59,586 nucleotides of DNA from a virus. Position numbers and translations under genes: made by a program. The stretch lies in IMG/VR virus record IMGVR_UViG_3300028794_000007, positions 1-59,586 of that record. One strand, 5' to 3'. The notes below the pieces were generated by a model, which had not been told where the DNA came from, made no database searches, and saw nothing but the letters and a program-made list of their open reading frames with translations. Below are positions 1 through 59,586 of this stretch, one piece after another. Within the stretch, counting starts at the first letter, position 1. Every line of letters begins with the position of its first letter.

Positions 1-90
1 TGTCACCGTTGATCTTCCTAAAAAGATCACTCATTGATCTTCGGTGATCCACATGTGATCAACTCCCGATCGAATGTGTGGGTCCTCCGC
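1..90. other. Noncoding terminal segment rich in GATC
   Basis: No gene is seen. Six GATC tetramers fall within about 60 bases, several inside short dyads. If the window is a linear virion genome, this is the end distal to the terminase genes and could be part of the cos or packaging region, which is inference. Confidence 0.4.
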
Positions 91-350: not shown

Positions 351-863
351 TCAGACGTACACGATCTGCGGGTTGGGTCGGGCGGCCATCGTCGGCATGA
401 GGTCGCAGGCCACCCGCTCGGTGTACTTCGAGCCCTGGCCCACGACCAGCAGGTCGCAGGAGTAGCCGCGTCCCGAGCCGGACAGGTGGGTGCAGATGAA
501 CTGGATCCGCTTGCCGGTGTCGAGGCGTTCGATTCGCTCTTCGCCGTTGGCTCGCCTGACCTTGACCGTGTCCGCTGCGTCCAGCTGGTTGACGGCGCGC
601 ACCAGCCGCTCGAACGCGTCCCTGAGGAAAGGCCGTCTCGGAGCGGTCCAGAGGACGTTCTCGTCGAGGAGCAGCAGCCCGATCAGGGCCCGTGCGATCA
701 CCGAGGCGTCCGACCTGGGGTCGGTGACGGTCCAGGTGGGCCAACGCCACTTACCCGACTCCGGGTGGAGGTGGAGCATCTCCCGAAGGTCTGCTGCCTG
801 GGCGGCGTCCAGGTCGAGCCCAGCCATGCGGGTGAACTCGTCGAGGTCGATCGTGGAGAGCAT
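351..863 (-). CDS. Degenerate terminase large-subunit ATPase-domain paralogue
   Basis: 170 residues from ATG 863 (GAGGTG six bases upstream; an upstream GTG at 872 is possible). It aligns by eye along its whole length with the ATPase half of the true TerL at the other end of the window. For example ACDLMPTMAARPNPQI here matches MGALMPTLSARPDPQI in TerL, and VLWTA matches IVWTA. The Walker A segment ARQNGKT of TerL is DPRSDAS here, and the Walker B segment VVMDE is LVVGQ here, so ATP hydrolysis is not expected. The nuclease domain is absent. Kinship is seen in sequence; a role in packaging or its control is inference. Confidence 0.65.
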   Translation of the reverse strand: MLSTIDLDEFTRMAGLDLDAAQAADLREMLHLHPESGKWRWPTWTVTDPRSDASVIARALIGLLLLDENVLWTAPRRPFLRDAFERLVRAVNQLDAADTVKVRRANGEERIERLDTGKRIQFICTHLSGSGRGYSCDLLVVGQGSKYTERVACDLMPTMAARPNPQIVYV

Positions 864-873
864 GCGGCTCACC

Positions 874-1086
874 TCAGTCCGAGTCCCGTGCGCGGGTAGC
901 CAACCAGGTCACGCCGTAGAGCACGGCCATTACGCGAGCCGTGAGAGCGAGGACGTTCAGCCATTGCCAGCCAGTCGCGCTCTGCACGTCGTCGAGCACG
1001 TGGGCGGCGATGATGCAGGCGATGGCGTGCCATGCGTTGCGGTCGACCTTGACGTACCGGTCGCGCTTCTTGGTCGGAGCGGTCAC
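874..1086 (-). CDS. Small probable membrane protein
   Basis: 70 residues from GTG 1086, between the HNH gene and the TerL-like gene with gaps of only one to a few bases. A basic N-terminus (KKRDRYVK) precedes two moderately hydrophobic segments (about residues 19-32 and 42-62). No family is recognised. Position suggests co-transcription with the HNH gene. Confidence 0.55.
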   Translation of the reverse strand: MTAPTKKRDRYVKVDRNAWHAIACIIAAHVLDDVQSATGWQWLNVLALTARVMAVLYGVTWLATRARDSD

Positions 1087-1089
1087 GGG

Positions 1090-1467
1090 TCACACCTCAC
1101 TGGGGTCGAGGTCTACGTAGCCTCGGGGTTGGGCCGGCACCAGAAGGTCGCAGGGCAGTCCGAGGGAGCAGGCGCAGTCCTCGCGGGACAGGTTGCGGAG
1201 CCGGTTGGAGCGGGCACTGTTGCAGCCGACGTGCGCGAGCCTGAGGTTGGAACGGGCAGTGCAGCGTGGGTCCGTCTTGTCCATATGGTCGAGCTGGACG
1301 AGGTGATCCGCCGACCGGGACCGTGAAGCGAGTGGGCCTTGAGCGGAGAGGCGTTGGTCTACTGGTTGGCCGCAGAGCCAGCAGTGAGTCTCGGAGTCGA
1401 AGACAGCCTGCTGGGCTTGACGCCAGCGGTGCCCTACGCGTCCGGGCTGGCCGGGCTGTCGGGACAC
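1090..1467 (-). CDS. HNH endonuclease
   Basis: 125 residues. A CWLCGQPVD zinc knuckle (about residues 29-37) precedes the HNH core: ADHLVQLDH, then SNLRLAHVGCNS (about residues 73-84), the usual actinophage arrangement of DH, N and H with paired Cys. The start is a GTG inside the end of the upstream gene. In HK97-like phages an HNH protein often works with terminase at cos. Here it lies near the window end opposite TerS, which fits if the ends join. A homing role is the alternative. Confidence 0.85.
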   Translation of the reverse strand: MSRQPGQPGRVGHRWRQAQQAVFDSETHCWLCGQPVDQRLSAQGPLASRSRSADHLVQLDHMDKTDPRCTARSNLRLAHVGCNSARSNRLRNLSREDCACSLGLPCDLLVPAQPRGYVDLDPSEV

Positions 1468-4857: not shown

Positions 4858-5250
4858 TCACTTCATCCCCTGCCCGTTGTCTCGGATGTACTCGTAGGCC
4901 TGCCAACACGACACTCCCTCACAGTCCACCTCATGCCCTACCTGCCCGTAGCCGACCTCCCGATGCCCTGTCACCGTGTGGACCTTCCCGCCGCAGCGGA
5001 AGCGGTAGCCGACCGGGTAGAGCCCGCCTGTGGCCTTCAGGACGTCGGGGACGCGGCAGGCCTGGCACGACACCAACTCCCACTTCAACGACAGACGTGT
5101 GCCGCCTGGGGCGCCGCAGCGGGCCACGGTTCGGCCGGCGCGGTTGTCGAGGTAGTGGGTGAGGCCGTCTTGGGCTTGGACGTGGAGGACTTCGGAGGCC
5201 AACAGCGCGGCGGAGAGCGGCGGGTTGAACGGGTCACGGTCAGGGGGCAT
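4858..5250 (-). CDS. Hypothetical Cys-containing protein
   Basis: 130 residues from ATG 5250, overlapping the upstream gene by 11 bases. Cysteines occur as C..C (SCQAC), RCGG and DCEGVSC, so a structural zinc site is possible but not canonical. The C-terminus is WQAYEYIRDNGQGMK. No family recognised. Confidence 0.6.
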   Translation of the reverse strand: MPPDRDPFNPPLSAALLASEVLHVQAQDGLTHYLDNRAGRTVARCGAPGGTRLSLKWELVSCQACRVPDVLKATGGLYPVGYRFRCGGKVHTVTGHREVGYGQVGHEVDCEGVSCWQAYEYIRDNGQGMK

Positions 5251-5476
5251 CGTCCGATTCCATGGCCTTGCGGAGGATCTGGGCGGCCGCGCGCAGGCCG
5301 GGCGCTTCGGGCTTGTCGGGCCTCAGCTCAGCGCCAGCCTCGAAGACCGCGATGTACCCGCGGAGTTCCTTGTCGAACTCGGCGGCGAGCCTGTCGCATA
5401 GCTCGGTCATAGGCTGCTCCAGCGCCTGCTCTATAGCCGCTTGGAGCTCGCCCGGGGAAGGCTTGGGTTCGGTCAT
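5240..5476 (-). CDS. Hypothetical helical protein
   Basis: 78 residues from ATG 5476. It is predominantly alpha-helical and acidic (ELQAAIEQALEQPMTELCDRL), with no membrane or metal motif. It overlaps the next gene by 11 bases. Function unknown. Confidence 0.6.
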   Translation of the reverse strand: MTEPKPSPGELQAAIEQALEQPMTELCDRLAAEFDKELRGYIAVFEAGAELRPDKPEAPGLRAAAQILRKAMESDDAP

Positions 5477-5492
5477 GTCTTCGTCATCCCCT

Positions 5493-5765
5493 TCACTTCA
5501 CGCCGAGGCGACGCGTGACCTCGTCCGAGAGCCGCTTCTGGAGGTCCGCCAACTGCTGCGGCGTCAGCGCCGCCAGATCACCCGAGGCGGGCTTCCCCGC
5601 ACGCCCCGGGGGCGCCCACGAGATGGCCGTGAAACCCGAGGGTTGGAACAGTTCAGGTGCGGGCGGCGCCGTATGCAACTTGAGTCGCGTCCGCTCTCCC
5701 GGGTCAGCAACCCGGTATTGCTCCAGCATCCGCGCCGCCAATGCGCTACTCATCCCCGTTGCCAT
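5493..5765 (-). CDS. Hypothetical protein
   Basis: 90 residues from ATG 5765, which shares one base with the upstream stop; GTG 5768 is an alternative. A helical N-terminus (SALAARMLEQYRV) and a helical C-terminus (TPQQLADLQKRLSDEVTRRL) flank a Pro/Ala linker. No domain recognised. Confidence 0.6.
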   Translation of the reverse strand: MATGMSSALAARMLEQYRVADPGERTRLKLHTAPPAPELFQPSGFTAISWAPPGRAGKPASGDLAALTPQQLADLQKRLSDEVTRRLGVK

Positions 5766-6705: not shown

Positions 6706-6986
6706 TCGGCCGCCTTCCGGTTCCGGAGCCGCTGCCACCACGAGGCGCGGCGCCACATCAGCCCGCTCGGACGAACGCCGCGCGGCGGCCAGCAGTAGTC
6801 CACGCGCCACAGATCGCCGCACGTGTCACACCGCCAGAGATCGCCAACCGAACCCTCAGGCACCGTCTCGACGTGACTGAACTTTTCCCCGCCAGTGAGG
6901 AACGACGGCAGAGTGTGGATGACCGTCTTCCTCGGCTGCGCACACGCATGCTCGACCACCACGGGCGCCTTCTTGATCCACGTCAC
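6702..6986 (-). CDS. Hypothetical protein with CxxC pair
   Basis: 94 residues from GTG 6986, GTGA-coupled. WRCDTCGDLWRVDYCW (about residues 58-73) is rubredoxin-knuckle-like, and the C-terminus is basic and Trp-rich. It lies just after the proteasome-like gene. Function unknown. Confidence 0.6.
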   Translation of the reverse strand: MTWIKKAPVVVEHACAQPRKTVIHTLPSFLTGGEKFSHVETVPEGSVGDLWRCDTCGDLWRVDYCWPPRGVRPSGLMWRRASWWQRLRNRKAAE

Positions 6987-7522
6987 GATGTCTCCAGGAT
7001 GGTGAACGGGCCGTGGACACCGGCGTTGTGGTGCTCCGCCGCCTCGAGCGCACGCCGGACACGCCGCAGCGGAGCCGAACGACGAGTCACATGGAGCACA
7101 CCGGACGCGACGTCCTGCCCCGACCCGCACGCCTCATAACCGTCGGTAGACCAGCCGACCTGGTAGTCCGACTCCAGCCGGAACAGCCGCCCCGACACCC
7201 CGATCAGGAACACGCCGCCCTCCTCCTGCTCGGAGTCCTTCTTCGCGAACCCGCCGTCCTTGAGGACCTTCCGCACAGCGTCGACGAACTCCGTCGACAT
7301 GAACCGGTCCAAGTCCTCACCGGTCCGGTCGAGGACCTTCGGCAAGTCCGCGTACCGCAGCAACTGCCCCATCCGGAACGACGACGTGAACCCGATCAGG
7401 TAGTCGCCGTTGGCGAAGACCTTCGGGTCCGCGCGGTGCTGCAGCGTGTAGCCAGCGACGCCTCCGCTGTCTCCGCCGATGATCACACCCGTGGGTGTCC
7501 GGACTCCGACAATGCAGGTCAT
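6983..7522 (-). CDS. Proteasome/HslV-like Ntn hydrolase
   Basis: 179 residues beginning MTCIVGVRTPTGVIIGGDSGGV. The start, Thr2 exposed after Met removal, the following beta strand, the GGDSGG turn and the later PKVF match the fold of proteasome beta/HslV proteins. Such stand-alone homologues occur in actinophages. The expected general-base Lys is not certain: DPKVFANGDYLIGFT provides one candidate. Activity and targets are unknown; a role in turning over host or phage proteins is inference. Confidence 0.7.
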   Translation of the reverse strand: MTCIVGVRTPTGVIIGGDSGGVAGYTLQHRADPKVFANGDYLIGFTSSFRMGQLLRYADLPKVLDRTGEDLDRFMSTEFVDAVRKVLKDGGFAKKDSEQEEGGVFLIGVSGRLFRLESDYQVGWSTDGYEACGSGQDVASGVLHVTRRSAPLRRVRRALEAAEHHNAGVHGPFTILETS

Positions 7523-7782: not shown

Positions 7783-8000
7783 TCGGTCACCTTCTTCCGG
7801 GGTCCGTGAGGGCCAGTGGAGGTCCACGAGAAGTCGGGTGGGAGCAGCCCCAACGCGAGGAGCAGCTGCCGGCGGTCGGCGACAGAGGTGCCGTTGTGGC
7901 AGACGCTGAGGGCGGCTTTGCGGCGTTCCGTCTCGGTGGTGTTGCGGCCTGAGGTGGCGGCGTGGCCACGCTGGTTGTCGTCGGTGATACCCCCGCTCAC
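7779..8000 (-). CDS. Small actinophage early protein
   Basis: 73 residues from GTG 8000. ADRRQLLLALGLLPPDFSW matches, from memory, a common short actinophage motif (helix, then LGLL.P). It follows the adenine methyltransferase by a GTGA overlap. Function unknown. Confidence 0.6.
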   Translation of the reverse strand: MSGGITDDNQRGHAATSGRNTTETERRKAALSVCHNGTSVADRRQLLLALGLLPPDFSWTSTGPHGPRKKVTE

Positions 8001-8746
8001 GAAGCATCTCCGATCATGAACAGGTCAGTCTCCGCCAGCCGCTTGGCTGCGGCCTCGCAGTACGCCTCGTCGGCCTCGATGCCGACCGCACGGCGGCCGA
8101 GGGAGCGTGCGGTGAGCAGCGTCGAGCCGGACCCAGCGAACGGGTCGAGGACCAGCCCGGCGAGGGGCACGGAGTAGCGGATCAGCGGGTCCAGGACGGC
8201 GCCCGGCTTCTCCGTTGGGTGCAGGCCGCCACGCACCGACTTGACCTTGACGACGGATCGGACCATGCGGGTGCCATCGTCGACGTACTGGTGGGCGCCG
8301 ATCTCGCCGGTGTGCGGGGTCCTCGAGGTGCGGGCGCGGGCGTGCTTGTCCGGTCCGTGGTACGCCTCACGGACCGCCTCGTGGTGCACGTCGCGCCAGT
8401 CGCCCCGGTAGAAGTGCAACGCCAGTTCGTGGACGCGCTTGAACCGGTCGGCCGCGAAGCCAGTGCCGTTGTGCTTCTCCCACACCACGTCTTGCGCGAG
8501 CTTCCACCCGGCGAAGTCCGGCAGGTGGTCGAAGAACATCCGCATCGACCCGAAGCACCACAGGGCGTTCGTGGTGTCGTCGAGCGCCTTGACCCAGCCG
8601 TCCGGCCAGCGGTCCCAGACGAGGGACGTCTCCCCGTACGGCGGGTCCGTGATGACCGCGTCAGCTCGTATATCGAGCGCGGGCAGGATCTCCCGCATGT
8701 CGCCGTGGTGCAAGGCGATACGGTCGTCCTCGTAGTAGGGCTTCAC
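7997..8746 (-). CDS. DNA adenine N6-methyltransferase
   Basis: 249 residues. Catalytic motif IV DPPYGE at residues 34-39 precedes the AdoMet motif FAGSG at about residues 203-207, the beta-class order. The C-terminus LGRRAVGIEADEAYCEAAAKRL is the usual AdoMet-site continuation. It transfers methyl to adenine N6 in a specific site. No endonuclease partner is adjacent, so self-protection against host restriction, or regulation, is likelier than a restriction system. Confidence 0.9.
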   Translation of the reverse strand: MKPYYEDDRIALHHGDMREILPALDIRADAVITDPPYGETSLVWDRWPDGWVKALDDTTNALWCFGSMRMFFDHLPDFAGWKLAQDVVWEKHNGTGFAADRFKRVHELALHFYRGDWRDVHHEAVREAYHGPDKHARARTSRTPHTGEIGAHQYVDDGTRMVRSVVKVKSVRGGLHPTEKPGAVLDPLIRYSVPLAGLVLDPFAGSGSTLLTARSLGRRAVGIEADEAYCEAAAKRLAETDLFMIGDAS

Positions 8747-53040: not shown

Positions 53041-53700
53041 TCAGCTCCGTTCTACGTACTCCGCCGCTCGACGGAGCACCTTCGGGTCATCTCGGAACTT
53101 CCCGAGCGCGAGATTGCAGGAGTCACAGAGAATGCCGCGGACTTTGCCGGTCTTGTGGCAGTGGTCGACATGCAGCATGCCGAATCTGCCTTCCTTGCCG
53201 TCGCCGCCGCAGATCGCGCAGACCCCGCCCTGCTCGGCAAGCATGCGTTCGTAGTCTTCCTGCGAGATCCCGTACTCCATGCGGAGCCGAATGTTCCTTC
53301 TGTACGCAGACGTGATGCGACCTGACTGAACTCGATCGCGGCCCGCGCAGAGGCGTGAGCAGTACCGCGCGTCGCTCCGGAGATGTGACAGGTCTGCGGA
53401 GCAGGCGGCGCAAGCACGCGCCTCTCGTGGGTTCTCTCGCTGGTATCGCGCCTTCATCTTGCATGCTGGCGAGCAGAACCGTTGATGATTGGTTCTGGTT
53501 TTCGGCTGGTACAGGTTCCCGCACGTCTCGCAGGATCTTGGGTCGTCGTTCCCGCCATCCTTTGGCGTGTACCTGTCTCGGTGCCACTGGCGGTAACAAC
53601 CCTTGCACCAGCGGTTGAGTCCGTCCTTCGAGGACTTCTGCTTGGGGAAATCCTCGAAGGACTTGACTTCGCCGCACCTACTGCACGTCTTCTCACTCAT
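53041..53700 (-). CDS. Endonuclease VII-type mobile nuclease
   Basis: 219 residues from ATG 53700. Three Cys-pair zinc ribbons in the N-terminal half ([24 protein letters not shown]) lead to the EndoVII-like core [33 protein letters not shown]. Moderately lower GC and an AT-richer upstream gap mark an insertion between the capsid gene and its usual neighbours. A homing role is likely. Confidence 0.85.
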
Positions 53701-53736: not shown

Positions 53737-55149
53737 TCAGAAGGCTGGCGTGACCAGGCCCGTCCCCGTGATGCTTTGCATCCCATTGCTGTACCGCCTC
53801 AAACTGTAAGCGAAGTACCCGTACAGGACGAGCAGCACGCCGAGGCTGGCGGCCTTGGCCTGCTCCGCCCGGATGAACACCGGGGCCTGCGGGTCCTCCC
53901 ACAGGTGGCATTCGTCCTGTGGGACCACGAAGATCGCGTCCTCGTTGGTGCCGGCACCGCCGGCGGTGCCGATGTTGTTGTCCACCACGGCCGACATGCC
54001 GTTCGGCAGGACACCCCGCGAGCCGGAGCCGTACCGGACCGCGTTGTTGACGCCCGCGGCCTGGGGGTCGATGCCCGGCTGCTGGATGGTGGGCCAGTTC
54101 GGGCCGACCTGGGACTGCATCCAGTACCACCGGCGGGAGTGCATGATCACGTGCGACGGGACGGCCTGGCCCAGCAGGGCCGCTTCCACGCCGGCCGCGG
54201 CGCCCAGGAGCTTCGGGTACAGCTCGGGGACCGTCGGGGTTGCGTCGGTGTAGGTCGTGGTCGTCGCGACCGCGGCCAGACCGGTGGTGGCCTGGTTGAT
54301 CAGCGTGTTGTCCAGCGTGGTCGCGTACCGCTTGAACAGGTCACCGAGGGCGACCTCCTCGATGCCGGTGCCGCGCTCGAGGGCCTGCCGGGACAGGGTC
54401 TGCTGACCCGACGCGGTCTGGACGTTCTCCGTGAGGAGCGTGTCGTCCATGTCGGTCTCGGAGACGTTCGTGTTCTCCGTCGCCTGCAGCGCCACCGACG
54501 AAGCGGTGGTGATGCGGGAGATGTTGACCGTCATGCCCTCGGTGGGCAGGTCGTGGTGGTTGCAGATGTCCGCGAACGGACGGAGGTTCGCCACCGCGGG
54601 GGCGTACATGTCCGTCAGGTACTGCGGAACCACCAGGCCCGAGAACGCGCCGGTGCCGGCCGCACGCGTGAGGTACTGGGCGCGTTCGACGCGCTCCTCC
54701 TGCATGTGCCGGACGAGACGCTGCTCGGCCTCGAGGTCGCGGAACAGGAACTGCTTCGCGACGTCCCGGACGAACTGGGAGCCCTTGCGGTCGCTGCCCT
54801 TGTGGTAGGTGCGCTCCTCGGTCCCGACGCGGGCGACCTGGTCGTACTTGCGGGTCTGGACGCCGGTGGAGTGGCGTTCCTCGCTCGCGGTGGTGACCTC
54901 GAGCTCCGCGGTCTTGGCGCGCTTGGCGTTCTCGAGCTTGGAGGCGATGCCGACCAGGTCGGTGGCCTTGCGCTCCTTGATCTCGAAGAGCTCCTTGACG
55001 CGCGCGTCCTCGTCCTGGGTGAGGGTGGAGCGGCCTTCCTGGGTGGCGGACGCCACGATGGCCTGGACTTCGGCGATGGCCTTGTCGCGGGCCTTCGTCG
55101 CCATGTCCTGCTCCACCTCGATCTTGGTGATGATTTCGTCGATGACCAT
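53737..55149 (-). CDS. Major capsid protein, HK97 fold
   Basis: 470 residues from ATG 55149 with GGGAGG upstream. An N-terminal delta-like coiled region (about residues 1-110, KELFEIKERKATDLVGIASK) removed by the protease is likely, followed by FSGLVVPQYLTDMYAPAVAN, SEERH-linked linker and the HK97 core (WYWMQSQVGPNWPTIQQPG, DPQAAGVNNAVRYGSGSRG, GYFAYSLRRYSNG). Follows the S78-type protease, as in HK97. Confidence 0.93.
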   Translation of the reverse strand: MVIDEIITKIEVEQDMATKARDKAIAEVQAIVASATQEGRSTLTQDEDARVKELFEIKERKATDLVGIASKLENAKRAKTAELEVTTASEERHSTGVQTRKYDQVARVGTEERTYHKGSDRKGSQFVRDVAKQFLFRDLEAEQRLVRHMQEERVERAQYLTRAAGTGAFSGLVVPQYLTDMYAPAVANLRPFADICNHHDLPTEGMTVNISRITTASSVALQATENTNVSETDMDDTLLTENVQTASGQQTLSRQALERGTGIEEVALGDLFKRYATTLDNTLINQATTGLAAVATTTTYTDATPTVPELYPKLLGAAAGVEAALLGQAVPSHVIMHSRRWYWMQSQVGPNWPTIQQPGIDPQAAGVNNAVRYGSGSRGVLPNGMSAVVDNNIGTAGGAGTNEDAIFVVPQDECHLWEDPQAPVFIRAEQAKAASLGVLLVLYGYFAYSLRRYSNGMQSITGTGLVTPAF

Positions 55150-55191
55150 GACGAAACCTCCCTTTCGAGTTGCAGAAGTTGACAGTGGGCT

Positions 55192-55295
55192 CGCGATCCC
55201 GGTCTGAGTGCCGTCCATGCGAGGGCAGCTACCGATCTGAGTGTCGGCATGCTGGTGGAACCGATCCGCGCGCTTACCGGTCTGAGTGCCGGCTG
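55192..55295. repeat. Three direct repeats upstream of the capsid gene
   Basis: CCGGTCTGAGTGCC at 55199-55212 and 55277-55290, and a close variant CCGATCTGAGTGTC at 55232-55245. Spacing is 33 and 45 bp. They lie in the noncoding leader between protease and capsid genes. They may bind a protein or mark an internal promoter or RNA site. Confidence 0.6.
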
Positions 55296-55309
55296 AGCGC
55301 GGGAAGTCT

Positions 55310-56083
55310 TCAGAGCTCGAGCAGAGCCTGGATCAGCTGGATCGACCGGCCCTGCGGCTGCGCCGGAACCTCCGGGACGGAGACCTCGGCACGCTCGGCG
55401 GGCACCTCCGGCTCGACGGGCGCCGGCCGTGCGTGGGTTTCCTGCAGCATCTCCACCGCGGCGCGCTGCGCACCCGACGGGAGCCGCTGCAGGTCGTTGA
55501 GGATCTCCGTCTGCCGCGCCGCGACGCTCGTGTACGGGTTGGCGCCGTAGTTCACCGCGGAAACGTCACCCCGGTCGAGGTCGACCTCGAGGATCCGGAA
55601 CTCGGAGTAGTCCTCGTTCCACTGACCATCGATGATCCGGAACGCGAACGACATTTCCGTGACGTCACGGTCGTCGATGGCGAGGAGGAGGTCGTTCACG
55701 TCGACCCGCTTCGGGTTGACGTACGCCTCCGTCTGCAGCCCCTGCGAGTCCGCGGCCAGCAGCAGCGAACCCGAGGTGGTGCGGGCCATGGTGACACCGG
55801 AGTGGTTCACCAGGTACGCCACGTCCGGCTTCCGCGAGAGGGTCTTCGCGAACGCCCCCTGGTCGACGATCTCGTCGTACTCGCCGAACATGTCGTACAT
55901 CCGGTACGCCTTCTCCACGACGGAGGCGTTTCCGGTGAGCTTGACCTTCTCCGCGCCGTTCCAGATCACCGGCTCGGCGCGCATCTGCGCCGAGAACGGC
56001 TGGCGGTGCCACGCCCCGTTCGGGATCTCGCCCGGGTTCTCGGTTACCGCGGCCGCGCGGCGCTGGAGCACATTCGGATCCAC
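55310..56083 (-). CDS. Prohead protease, S78-type
   Basis: 257 residues from GTG 56083, preferred because AAGGAG lies seven bases before it; an upstream ATG or GTG at 56101-56104 is possible. Motifs PDVAYLVNHSGVTMART with the catalytic His, and DRDVTEMSFAFRI with the catalytic Ser, are the S78 family signature. It cleaves the capsid delta region in the prohead. The C-terminus is Pro-rich. Confidence 0.88.
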   Translation of the reverse strand: MDPNVLQRRAAAVTENPGEIPNGAWHRQPFSAQMRAEPVIWNGAEKVKLTGNASVVEKAYRMYDMFGEYDEIVDQGAFAKTLSRKPDVAYLVNHSGVTMARTTSGSLLLAADSQGLQTEAYVNPKRVDVNDLLLAIDDRDVTEMSFAFRIIDGQWNEDYSEFRILEVDLDRGDVSAVNYGANPYTSVAARQTEILNDLQRLPSGAQRAAVEMLQETHARPAPVEPEVPAERAEVSVPEVPAQPQGRSIQLIQALLEL

Positions 56084-56100
56084 CTGACTACTCCTTCGCA

Positions 56101-57294
56101 TCACGGCGCGCTCGCCGCCGGCTTGACAGCTTCAAGTCCCGCGCCAGGCTCGACCGTCGAACCTCGAGGCGGCCAGAACGTCAAGAACTGGTCGATCTGG
56201 TCCTGCGTCAACGCAGGGAGGTTGTCGAGCTCCCGCGCCTCGTCGGGAGTCATCGTGCGGGAATCGATCTTCACCTTGATCAGGTCGGCAGCCGTTTTCG
56301 GGTCCAGCCGCAGCAGGGCGCCGGTGTTGAACTTCACGTAACGAGGCTTCGACAGCAGACGTCCGAGGGCGTTCTCTCGGCGGATCACGGCAGGCCCCAG
56401 ATGCATGATCAGGAACTGCAAGTTCCGTTGCGTGATCGACGCGTACGTGATGCTGCCCGACTGCACCGCAGCGTCGATCAGATCCCCTGGGCAGTCGAAG
56501 AACCGCGCGATGTCCCCGATGGAGAACTGTTTCGCCTCGAGCCACGCCGATCCAGCCTGCTCGGCCTGGATCATGTCGTATTCCCAGTCGTTGCCCGTGA
56601 CGAGGATCTCGCCGGCTCGGATCGACGCGTTGTAGCGTTCCTTGATGGTGCTGGCCTGCTCGGACGTCAGCGCCTTCGCGGTGTTCTTCATGTGCGCGAG
56701 CGGGACCCCGCCGTTGCCGAACCAGTCCAACGCGAAGTCCTGAATCGACAAGTACTCGCTGATGGACCACGCCGCATAGGCGACAGGCGACAACCCAACC
56801 GGAAGCCCGGACACGGTGTACTGACGCTCGTGCCACACGTCCTTCGGGTCATACAGCTTCCCTGCGATCCGGTACTGCTCCTTGCCGTCCCGGATCACGA
56901 ACGCGCACTCACCCAACGGCTGCAGGTCTATCCGGCGAGGAAGACCCCCGCCGTCCCGCTCCGTGATCAAGCCGAAGGCGTTCCCGCCCCGGTCAAGATC
57001 AACCTGAGACGAGTACAGCCACTCCTGCAGGTCCACTCGCTCCCCGCCCGGGTTCACCAGGACAGGGGGCTTCGGAACCTCGATCTGCTCGCCATTCACC
57101 CGGCGGAACACATCCACCGGCATCGTCGAAACCAGATTCCCCCGCAACCGCAGGCACGCCCACACCGCCGAGTGCCGCATCGCCGTGTCATTCGTGACCA
57201 CAGGCATACCCGGCTTGCCCAATGCGCGACGGGAGTTGACCATCTCTTCAGGCGTGGGGCCGAAGATGTTGCTCGTCCGGCGGAACAGCGACAT
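56101..57294 (-). CDS. Portal protein
   Basis: 397 residues from ATG 57294 with GAGG upstream. MSLFRRTSNIFGPTPEE, then AVWACLRLRGNLVSTMPVDV, LYDPKDVWHERQY and IARFFDCPGDLI match the HK97-family portal, the dodecameric DNA channel at the head vertex. Follows TerL and the small membrane gene, standard order. Confidence 0.92.
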   Translation of the reverse strand: MSLFRRTSNIFGPTPEEMVNSRRALGKPGMPVVTNDTAMRHSAVWACLRLRGNLVSTMPVDVFRRVNGEQIEVPKPPVLVNPGGERVDLQEWLYSSQVDLDRGGNAFGLITERDGGGLPRRIDLQPLGECAFVIRDGKEQYRIAGKLYDPKDVWHERQYTVSGLPVGLSPVAYAAWSISEYLSIQDFALDWFGNGGVPLAHMKNTAKALTSEQASTIKERYNASIRAGEILVTGNDWEYDMIQAEQAGSAWLEAKQFSIGDIARFFDCPGDLIDAAVQSGSITYASITQRNLQFLIMHLGPAVIRRENALGRLLSKPRYVKFNTGALLRLDPKTAADLIKVKIDSRTMTPDEARELDNLPALTQDQIDQFLTFWPPRGSTVEPGAGLEAVKPAASAP

Positions 57295-57306
57295 GCCTCA
57301 CCGCCT

Positions 57307-57483
57307 TCACTCAGGGTCCCTACGCTTCGGCGGACGCCCAAGCCACCACGCGGCCACACCAACAACGATCCCCGCGCCGGCGAAACCCAACGCGGGATGG
57401 ACTTGCCACAGCGCCCGGGCTGCGGCCACCGCGAACAGCATCAGCGTGAGCAGCTCGAGCGCGGTAACGATGTGCGTCCTCAA
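57307..57483 (-). CDS. 58-residue two-helix membrane protein between TerL and portal
   Basis: TTG 57483 with GGGGAG eight bases upstream, stop at 57307. Two hydrophobic helices (about residues 6-24 and 31-46) with a basic C-terminal tail (RPPKRRDPE). Too short for most callers and started by TTG. It may be a virion-assembly membrane protein; evidence for function is absent. Confidence 0.5.
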   Translation of the reverse strand: MRTHIVTALELLTLMLFAVAAARALWQVHPALGFAGAGIVVGVAAWWLGRPPKRRDPE

Positions 57484-57503
57484 TGCACCGACTCCCCAAG
57501 GGT

Positions 57504-59000
57504 CTAGTAGACGGATTCGAGGACGTCGTAGTTCGCGTCCTGCACCAGGTGGGCGCGGGACTCGTACACCCAGCGGGCGAACGTCAAAGCAACCAGCGGC
57601 GATGTGTCGGACTCGAGGTCCTTGCGGGTCCAGATCTCCGCGAACTCCGTGACCTTCGTCTTCGCCCCGGCAACCGACGCGTCCAACTCCCGCTGCCCGG
57701 TGTGCTTGAACGTGCCCTGCTTCACTGCGTCCAGGAACTGACTGGTCGCCGCGGTCATGTCTGTCGAGTTCAGGACCACCAGGTCCCCGGAGAGAGGGTC
57801 GTCCGACTTCAACGGGACCCGTATGTCGGTGGCGTCGAACTCCTCACCCTCGAGCGAAGCTGCGACCTGCCGTCCGGCACCGATCCCCACCGGGTTCAGT
57901 GCGTCCCGCCACCGCACGAGCTCGGGAATCACCCAGTCCGTGCCTGGCTTGTACGCCACGATCTGGCCGTGACCCAGCCCGTCCTCGCGCCGGCCCCACA
58001 GCGCGATCGCCGCGTAGTCCCGGGTCGGGGAGATGTCCACCGCGATCGCGACGTCACCCTCACGCTGAGACTCCCCGTCGAGCAGATTCGCCCACTGGCC
58101 GAGGTCGATCGCCGCACCGGCAGCCGCGGGGGGCTGGTGCCAGCCGAGTCGTTCCCGGCCGAACTCGAGAGCGGGGAGCGCCAGCCGCTCCGCGCGGACG
58201 TACTCGATCGTGATGCGCTTCCCTAGGGTGTGGTTCGCCTGCTGCCACAGCGCCTCGTCGTCCAGCGCGCACCCTGGGGTACCGGGCATGTGCGGGCACC
58301 GCTTCCCTCGCTCGCACGGCGGGTCCTCCCACGAACCTGCAGCGCAGAACTCCACCCAGATCAGCGACGGATCCTTCCCTGACCGCCCCCGATCCTTCAA
58401 CCGGTGGAGGTGATCGGAGGTATCCAGCGCCCCGGACGACCCGTAATTGATCTGCGGGTCAGGCCGGGCCGACAGGGTAGGCATGAGAGCGCCCATCGCG
58501 GCGCCGGCGAGGAACAGTGCCTCGTCCATCACGACCCGCTTACCACCCAAACCACGGCCGCCGCCCTTGGACCGGGCGAGGAACTCGAGCGTCGCACCGT
58601 TGTGAAGCTCGATCGCTTCCTCACCGTGGCCGTGGCAGATGCTCTTCACCCGCCGCGACAGGTCCGGCGACGTTGCGATGCACGTCTCGAAGTCCTCGAA
58701 CGCTCCCCGTGAGGTCTTGAACAGGTGCGCGGTCCAGACGATCCGGTCCGGCGGCATCAGGAACAGGTCGAACAACGTCACCGGCAGCAGCACGCCACCC
58801 GTCTTCCCGTTCTGCCTCGCCTCGACGACCGCGGACTCGAGTGCCGCCCACCGACCGCCCGGCCCGTAGGACAGCAACGCGTCGACTCCGAGACACTGCT
58901 CCTCGTCCAATACTCGGCCGGCCCGCTCCGCGAGGTCGACCGCCTCATCCCCGTACGACCCCACACGTGTCGGGATCGACAAGAACGCCGGGTGGATCAC
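57504..59000 (-). CDS. terL: Terminase large subunit
   Basis: 498 residues. Walker A ARQNGKT at residues 61-67, Walker B RVVMDE at 155-160, and a nuclease Asp at residue 322 in VAIAVDISPTRD give both ATPase and RNase-H-like nuclease halves. It drives DNA packaging and cuts at cos. A degenerate ATPase-domain copy lies at the other window end. Confidence 0.95.
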   Translation of the reverse strand: MIHPAFLSIPTRVGSYGDEAVDLAERAGRVLDEEQCLGVDALLSYGPGGRWAALESAVVEARQNGKTGGVLLPVTLFDLFLMPPDRIVWTAHLFKTSRGAFEDFETCIATSPDLSRRVKSICHGHGEEAIELHNGATLEFLARSKGGGRGLGGKRVVMDEALFLAGAAMGALMPTLSARPDPQINYGSSGALDTSDHLHRLKDRGRSGKDPSLIWVEFCAAGSWEDPPCERGKRCPHMPGTPGCALDDEALWQQANHTLGKRITIEYVRAERLALPALEFGRERLGWHQPPAAAGAAIDLGQWANLLDGESQREGDVAIAVDISPTRDYAAIALWGRREDGLGHGQIVAYKPGTDWVIPELVRWRDALNPVGIGAGRQVAASLEGEEFDATDIRVPLKSDDPLSGDLVVLNSTDMTAATSQFLDAVKQGTFKHTGQRELDASVAGAKTKVTEFAEIWTRKDLESDTSPLVALTFARWVYESRAHLVQDANYDVLESVY

Positions 59001-59416
59001 GCCGACTCGGCCTTTGCCCGCCGGCGCGCCAGCAGCTCGTCGACCGCGTCGCCCTGCTTCGGCGCACCGCGGAGAGCGACCTCCATCGCCGCGCGCAACT
59101 CCCGCGACAGCGACGCCGCCCCCGCAGCTGTGTGCTCCCCCGCGGCGAACAGCTCCGCCAGGTGCATCACCAGCGCGCCCTCAGGAGACTCGAGCCGCTC
59201 CGCCGTCTCCAGCTGCTTGCTGTACGCCTCGACCAGCGACGCCCGCGGCCGACCAGGAGCCGGGTTTTTCTCACCACGGTCTGGCAGTTCGATGACCCGC
59301 GGGTTCTTCCGATCCCTCGGAGGTCTGCAGGTCATGCAATACTTCCTGGGCCGAGCCGACCCCTGCTGGGGTGGGATGACCTCGCCGCAACCAGGGGTTT
59401 CGCAGACCTTTTTCAC
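58997..59416 (-). CDS. terS: Terminase small subunit
   Basis: 139 residues with ATGA overlap to TerL. An N-terminal zinc knuckle (CETPGCGEVIPPQQGSARPR, then KYCMTCRPP) and a helical C-terminus (MHLAELFAAGEHTAAGAASL). It recognises the packaging site and presents it to TerL. The Cys knuckle is a distinctive actinophage feature. Confidence 0.85.
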   Translation of the reverse strand: MKKVCETPGCGEVIPPQQGSARPRKYCMTCRPPRDRKNPRVIELPDRGEKNPAPGRPRASLVEAYSKQLETAERLESPEGALVMHLAELFAAGEHTAAGAASLSRELRAAMEVALRGAPKQGDAVDELLARRRAKAESA

Positions 59417-59586
59417 GGTAAGCCACCCCCTGGGTTTAGTGCTCGAGGCCCCTCTCGGCGCGGACGGTTTTCTGCGGCCTCACCAGCGGATTTCTGCTAC
59501 ATCATGATCACGCGACGATCTTGGAGTCGGCATCGTCGCAGGTCAGGGGCTTAAACCGCCGTGTTAGAGAGAAATGCACGGAGCCT
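59417..59586. other. Terminal noncoding region, probable cos side
   Basis: No gene. GCGACGAT (59512-59519) pairs with ATCGTCGC (59532-59539). Adjacent to TerS at the window end, it fits a packaging or cos region. Overhang bases cannot be read from one window. Confidence 0.45.

Follow-up and report, generated by a model that had tools for sequence, protein, structure and literature searches.

The window analysed here, a whole virus record of 59,586 bp from a soil actinophage, carries near one end a stand-alone homologue of the ATPase half of the large terminase subunit (TerL) and at the other end a full-length TerL which is itself a chimera of two TerL types. Judged from its sequence, the stand-alone protein (mini-TerL) is catalytically dead, since it no longer has the residues needed to bind and hydrolyse ATP, and it is unlikely to have arisen as a copy of the resident TerL. 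With somewhat less than even confidence, we propose that mini-TerL is a displaced, old-type ATPase half kept as a stand-alone pseudo-ATPase, which would serve as a non-hydrolysing partner of the terminase at cos. The gene and a retained part of it are located as follows.

351..863, minus strand: mini-TerL gene, a stand-alone TerL ATPase-half homologue of 170 aa that stops at the strand preceding motif C
465..548, minus strand: residues 106-133 of mini-TerL, the kept NGEE..ERLDTG hairpin and the SGRG loop preceding the former Walker B, with TerL-invariant columns retained

The mini-TerL open reading frame starts with ATG and is free of internal stops; an alternative GTG at 872 would give a protein of 173 aa. 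Its GC3 is 0.895 and its GC3 minus GC2 is 0.435, compared with a median of 0.38 in the called genes and within the range of the window genes. Promoter and terminator scans of the genome ends found nothing. BLASTP aligns mini-TerL with the window TerL (57504-59000, minus strand) at 28% identity over 169 aa (E=6e-8), and the segments that the sequence-only reading had matched by eye do align with each other in it. The terminase homology claimed there is also recovered by profile search, in which mini-TerL matches phrog_6910 (E=2.6e-9, residues 49-171), phrog_3167 (E=3e-5) and the TerL family phrog_9 (E=1.7e-4); Pfam gave no match for mini-TerL and likewise none for the window TerL. The AlphaFold model of mini-TerL (mean pLDDT 84.4, pTM 0.85) finds its best PDB fold matches in the TerL of P74-26, HK97, T4 and Sf6, and in a viral fold library the hits comprised full-length TerLs as well as short proteins from Octobien14, DirkDirk, NancyRae, Yeezy and others. 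Profiles and predicted fold together confirm mini-TerL as a homologue of the TerL ATPase half.

Mini-TerL was aligned to 14 actinomycete TerLs, and the columns that 13 or more of these conserve were counted. Among these 78 near-invariant columns 39 are retained and the other half is replaced, retention being higher for the C-terminal columns (25 of 41) than for the N-terminal ones (14 of 37). Walker A has changed from ARQNGK to PRSDAS, where solely the arginine of RQNGK is left, and the acidic pair DE of Walker B is replaced by GQ. The chain stops at PQIVYV, and motif C and the nuclease domain are absent. Replacement of both Walker motifs and loss of the nuclease half, as first read by eye, are thus borne out by the alignment. 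Retained are the NGEE..E.L.T stretch, SGRG and LMPT..AR.N.QI.Y, and at the DNA level positions 499-550 match the TerL gene of the related contig L163 over 52 nt at 85%. A pair of arginines before NG was considered as a derived mark of stand-alone proteins and was dropped, since some TerLs carry RR too. The arginine of SGRG was considered as a possible trans-acting finger and is kept as a lead only. In P74-26 TerL, R139 sits between alpha2 and beta3 (PMC5727402), and HK97 TerL shows no trans-acting finger of this kind (PMC9410871).

On the minus strand HNH is followed by a 70-aa gene, then by mini-TerL, by the genes of a small hydrophobic protein and of a CxxC peptide, and finally by the contig end; TerS and TerL occupy the other end of the window.

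1..60, strand not applicable: genome terminus on the cos side, AT-rich and GATC-rich, resembling the ends of related contigs L091 and L133
91..183, minus strand: CxxC peptide gene, 30 aa, a gene call, the last before the contig end
202..348, minus strand: probable small membrane protein, 48 aa, a gene call with a hydrophobic stretch by eye, downstream of mini-TerL
874..1086, minus strand: 70-aa gene, a gene call between HNH and mini-TerL, with no convincing family match
1090..1467, minus strand: HNH endonuclease gene, 125 aa (phrog_338, E=8e-13)
58997..59416, minus strand: TerS-like gene with a zinc-ribbon N terminus (phrog_6975)
59420..59586, strand not applicable: opposite genome terminus, ending AGAGAGAAATGCACGGAGCCT, likewise similar to the L091 and L133 ends

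The HNH protein is 53-57% identical to those that relatives encode upstream of TerS-TerL. The earlier statement that it adjoins mini-TerL holds in so far as an HNH gene is nearby, but the 70-aa gene intervenes. The ends of L091 and L133 are similar to those of the window on both sides, and the two ends of L091 itself overlap by 16 bases. Because these contig ends coincide, the two ends of the window very probably meet at a physical cos, which agrees with the proposal that the mini-TerL end would join the terminase end in a circle. In such a circle or concatemer, the mini-TerL gene would be upstream of TerS-TerL, with HNH on one side of it and cos on the other. In HK97, the HNH protein gp74 promotes cos cleavage (PMC9410871). 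In L111, a second HNH-like gene (5004-5597) is seen directly upstream of TerS. Elsewhere in the window, all on the minus strand, are a protein starting MTCIVGVRTPTGVIIGGDSGG that by eye is like a proteasome-type Ntn hydrolase (6983-7522), a protein with a DPPYGETS motif that looks like a DNA methyltransferase (7997-8746), and near the capsid gene a small protein with CxxC and DHCH that is HNH- or endonuclease VII-like (53041-53280).

The resident TerL falls into two parts of different affinity.

58101..59000, minus strand: TerL residues 1-300, the ATPase half with Walker motifs intact, of imported type, 63-93% per 30-aa window to L111/L091
57504..58100, minus strand: TerL residues 301-498, the nuclease half, of the native L163/L164 type, 64% at the amino acid level to both

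Related contigs were gathered via capsid and portal, and the closest are L163 (capsid 96%, portal 89%) and L164 (capsid 93%, portal 78%). Their DNA is 80-85% identical to the window over 53737-58112, a stretch that spans the TerL nuclease half. The ATPase half of the window TerL is only 35-36% identical to theirs and 72-77% identical to that of L111, L091, L093, L086 and L155, whose nuclease halves in turn reach 26-45%. TerS tracks the imported ATPase half, being 62% identical to L111 TerS and without a match in L163 or L164. The comparison of the halves shows that the resident TerL is a chimera, with the switch in similarity, and hence the breakpoint, near residue 300. Independent assortment of the two TerL halves can be seen across the window (57504-59000), L086, L091, L093, L111, L133, L155, L163 and L164, which points to repeated recombination at the boundary between the domains in these soil actinophages. 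L163 and L164 carry HNH (53-56% to the window HNH) followed by an intact TerL whose ATPase half is of the mini-TerL type, and no mini-TerL was found in either record. A stand-alone copy was found in none of the 38 related records, several of which are fragments.

The sequence-only reading had called mini-TerL a paralogue of the resident TerL. That it is a degenerated duplicate of the resident gene is consistent with the same fold and the 28% identity, and AU tests do not reject the pairing of the two as a clade (p=0.076 and 0.127). However, mini-TerL matches actinomycete prophage TerLs better (40%, E=1e-27) than the resident TerL (28%, E=2e-6), the resident protein is a chimera, and it lacks the ERLDTG element which is common to mini-TerL and the L163/L164 type of TerL. 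A tree of TerLs places mini-TerL as sister to the actinomycete prophage TerLs with support of 94/84. In a joint tree, mini-TerL falls among TerLs and the other stand-alone proteins fall outside the TerL group, 22 of them together, while a single clade of all stand-alone proteins including mini-TerL is not rejected (AU, p=0.32). A true paralogue is quite improbable. The simplest account would be displacement, in which a foreign TerS and TerL ATPase half took the place of the previous ones, an old ATPase half being left behind. We infer the direction of this swap, and with mini-TerL only 38-44% identical to the TerL of the relatives, as measured against the ATPase half of L164, the match is too limited to pinpoint the exact donor.

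A set of 24 stand-alone proteins was compared. GK[ST] is kept in the P-loop of 10, one has GRT and 13 have none, while RG before Walker B is retained in 20 of the 24. The gene precedes TerS-TerL in Brylie, BetterKatz, Bauer, Amelia, Orcanus, Brynnie, Coral and Marchesin, lies beside a terminal HNH gene in Adora, Denise, Ohgeesy, Yeezy, PantheRoc and Whack, lies a few genes from it in Bipper, Typha and Cracklewink, and is elsewhere in Syleon, Octobien14, Rabbitrun, SanaSana and DirkDirk. Mini-TerL of the window, near the terminal HNH at the genome end, follows this pattern. Pairwise dN/dS among the relatives' proteins ranges from 0.07 to 0.64, except for one pair with three changes, and is well under 1 in several relatives without a P-loop. 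Loss of the P-loop recurs in these sequences, and constraint at the protein level remains. In one Gordonia group (L069, L014, L082, L015), in which TerL is about 95% alike, the gene is whole in Ohgeesy, has an in-frame deletion of 111 nt that removes the P-loop in Yeezy, carries a 2-nt frameshift at the P-loop in PantheRoc and is absent from BaxterFox. Since BaxterFox lacks the gene at such TerL likeness, packaging there is independent of it and the gene is accessory in these phages; an essential packaging role in this group was rejected. Decay by frameshift, which had been named as a refuting sign, is thus seen in this one group, but in most relatives the gene is intact and pairwise dN/dS stays below 1.

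A recent relic, that is a displaced ATPase half which is still an open frame and has no function, is the most serious alternative and yet an unlikely one. Displacement alone accounts for the position, the truncation and the dead motifs, the gene is private to the window among the 38 related records, and decay by deletion or frameshift is seen in PantheRoc, Yeezy and BaxterFox. The dN between mini-TerL and L164 TerL is 0.62 (dS about 1, near saturation), about twice the 0.325 between the ATPase halves of L163 and L164, which indicates relaxed constraint; divergence older than the displacement could explain part of this excess. Against a relic, half of the near-invariant columns are replaced and yet the frame and the contrast between codon positions are kept. 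When neutral drift was simulated from the L164 sequence under several assumed GC equilibria, this contrast fell far below that observed in mini-TerL at any equilibrium (P<0.001), and the chance of a stop-free frame was 0.02-0.34, depending on GC equilibrium and distance. The better retention of C-terminal TerL columns and the low dN/dS in several P-loop-less relatives also speak against it. The coding signature argues against neutral decay, and mini-TerL is likely to be a selected protein despite its relaxed constraint. When viral contigs and genome contigs were searched by pattern, mini-TerL as query gave no close copy, nor did the window TerL, HNH, Adora gp76 or SanaSana gp31, so that dN/dS of this gene among near relatives is impossible to obtain.

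Two further explanations were weighed. As a decoy against immunity, a dead and truncated TerL fold might occupy an Avs-type STAND sensor, or shield TerL, without triggering it. The large terminase is, with the portal or another phage protein, among the targets recognised by Avs1-4 (PMC12931631), the predicted fold of mini-TerL matches the terminase bound by Avs3 (8dgc) at rank 43, and these genes are accessory, fast-evolving, catalytically dead and gained or lost among close relatives. However, a position beside HNH and cos is superfluous for a decoy and PADLOC gave no hit, and we consider this improbable. It is less probable still that mini-TerL forms mixed motors with, or blocks, an older-type terminase of a co-infecting phage or satellite. 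Mini-TerL is closer to the TerL type of sister phages than to the resident one, so that the phage's own motor could be spared, but the other stand-alone proteins are about equally distant from every compared TerL as from their own. We rank accessory tuning at cos above a not yet decayed relic, followed by an immunity decoy and lastly a weapon against competitors.

The displaced terminase partner that we prefer would have arisen when recombination brought in a foreign TerS and TerL ATPase half, the latter becoming fused to the native nuclease half. The old-type ATPase half would then have persisted between HNH and cos as a separate protein, losing the residues that bind and hydrolyse ATP and keeping the fold core, the NGEE hairpin, the SGRG loop and the LMPT..ARPNPQIVY strand. 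It may be expressed together with the terminase genes and might dock, without hydrolysis, on TerL, TerS or HNH at cos, where it could tune cos cleavage or the start of the motor. Consistent with such a partner, the relatives have HNH and then an old-type TerL without the stand-alone gene, TerS tracks the imported half, and by analogy the stand-alone genes of other actinophages adjoin TerS-TerL or a terminal HNH. The relaxed dN, the lack of a copy among the related records and the Gordonia losses count against it. A broader generalization, which we regard as doubtful, is that terminase domain swaps at cos repeatedly strand the old ATPase domain and that phages make of it a dedicated class of pseudo-ATPases acting on the packaging complex or on the immunity that senses it; the window would then hold swap and leftover together.

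These findings link the packaging motor with a class of actinophage genes annotated as hypothetical, helicase or AAA-ATPase, and provide for one of them a candidate origin in a TerL ATPase half displaced at the domain boundary. If functional, such proteins would be packaging pseudo-ATPases and a handle on whether terminase motors accept non-catalytic subunits. Should they act as decoys, phages would have in them an answer to TerL-sensing immunity. Both the packaging and the decoy readings can be put to the test in cultured Gordonia and Arthrobacter phages, some of which carry the gene while others lack it.

Among known systems, the short stand-alone phage proteins of phrog_6910 and phrog_3167 (Adora gp76, Bauer gp2, Amelia gp2, SanaSana gp31), whose function is unannotated and whose members are called hypothetical, DNA helicase or AAA-ATPase, share with mini-TerL the homology to the TerL ATPase half and often the loss of the P-loop. 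Most are 100-155 aa long and end near the strand before motif C, and many adjoin TerS-TerL or a terminal HNH; in contrast to them, mini-TerL is closer to full-length TerLs, and some members keep intact Walker motifs. A search with phrog_6910 across 395 actinomycete genomes returned full-length TerLs only, and a profile of the stand-alone proteins against the PDB gave mostly P-loop noise (RecA, ABC proteins). In the viral fold library, two entries annotated as HNHc domain containing and about 590 aa long (A0A6J5QUV0, A0A6J5RK67) match the mini-TerL ATPase fold, which suggests that they may be fused HNH-terminase proteins. The Pseudonocardia plasmid record CP052773.1 (L006) carries genes for terminase, portal and prohead protease and probably represents the genome of a phage. 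Arthrobacter phage Amelia also encodes a full-length TerL, and its gp2 is annotated 'terminase, large subunit (ATPase-domain)', which shows that an annotator had seen a terminase ATPase domain in one protein of this kind; our literature search found no study of Amelia gp2 and no description of stand-alone mini-TerL proteins. The HK97-type TerL (6Z6D) is by sequence the nearest solved structure to the TerL type of mini-TerL and is its second-best fold match; it is HNH-assisted too, but differs in being a full-length protein with active ATPase and nuclease. A gene order much like that of the window is seen in Rhodococcus phage Whack, where HNH (gp76) and then a TerL-like protein (gp77) are the last genes before the right end, although that protein is 206 aa long, has a GRT variant of the P-loop and DD in Walker B, and keeps the linker region.
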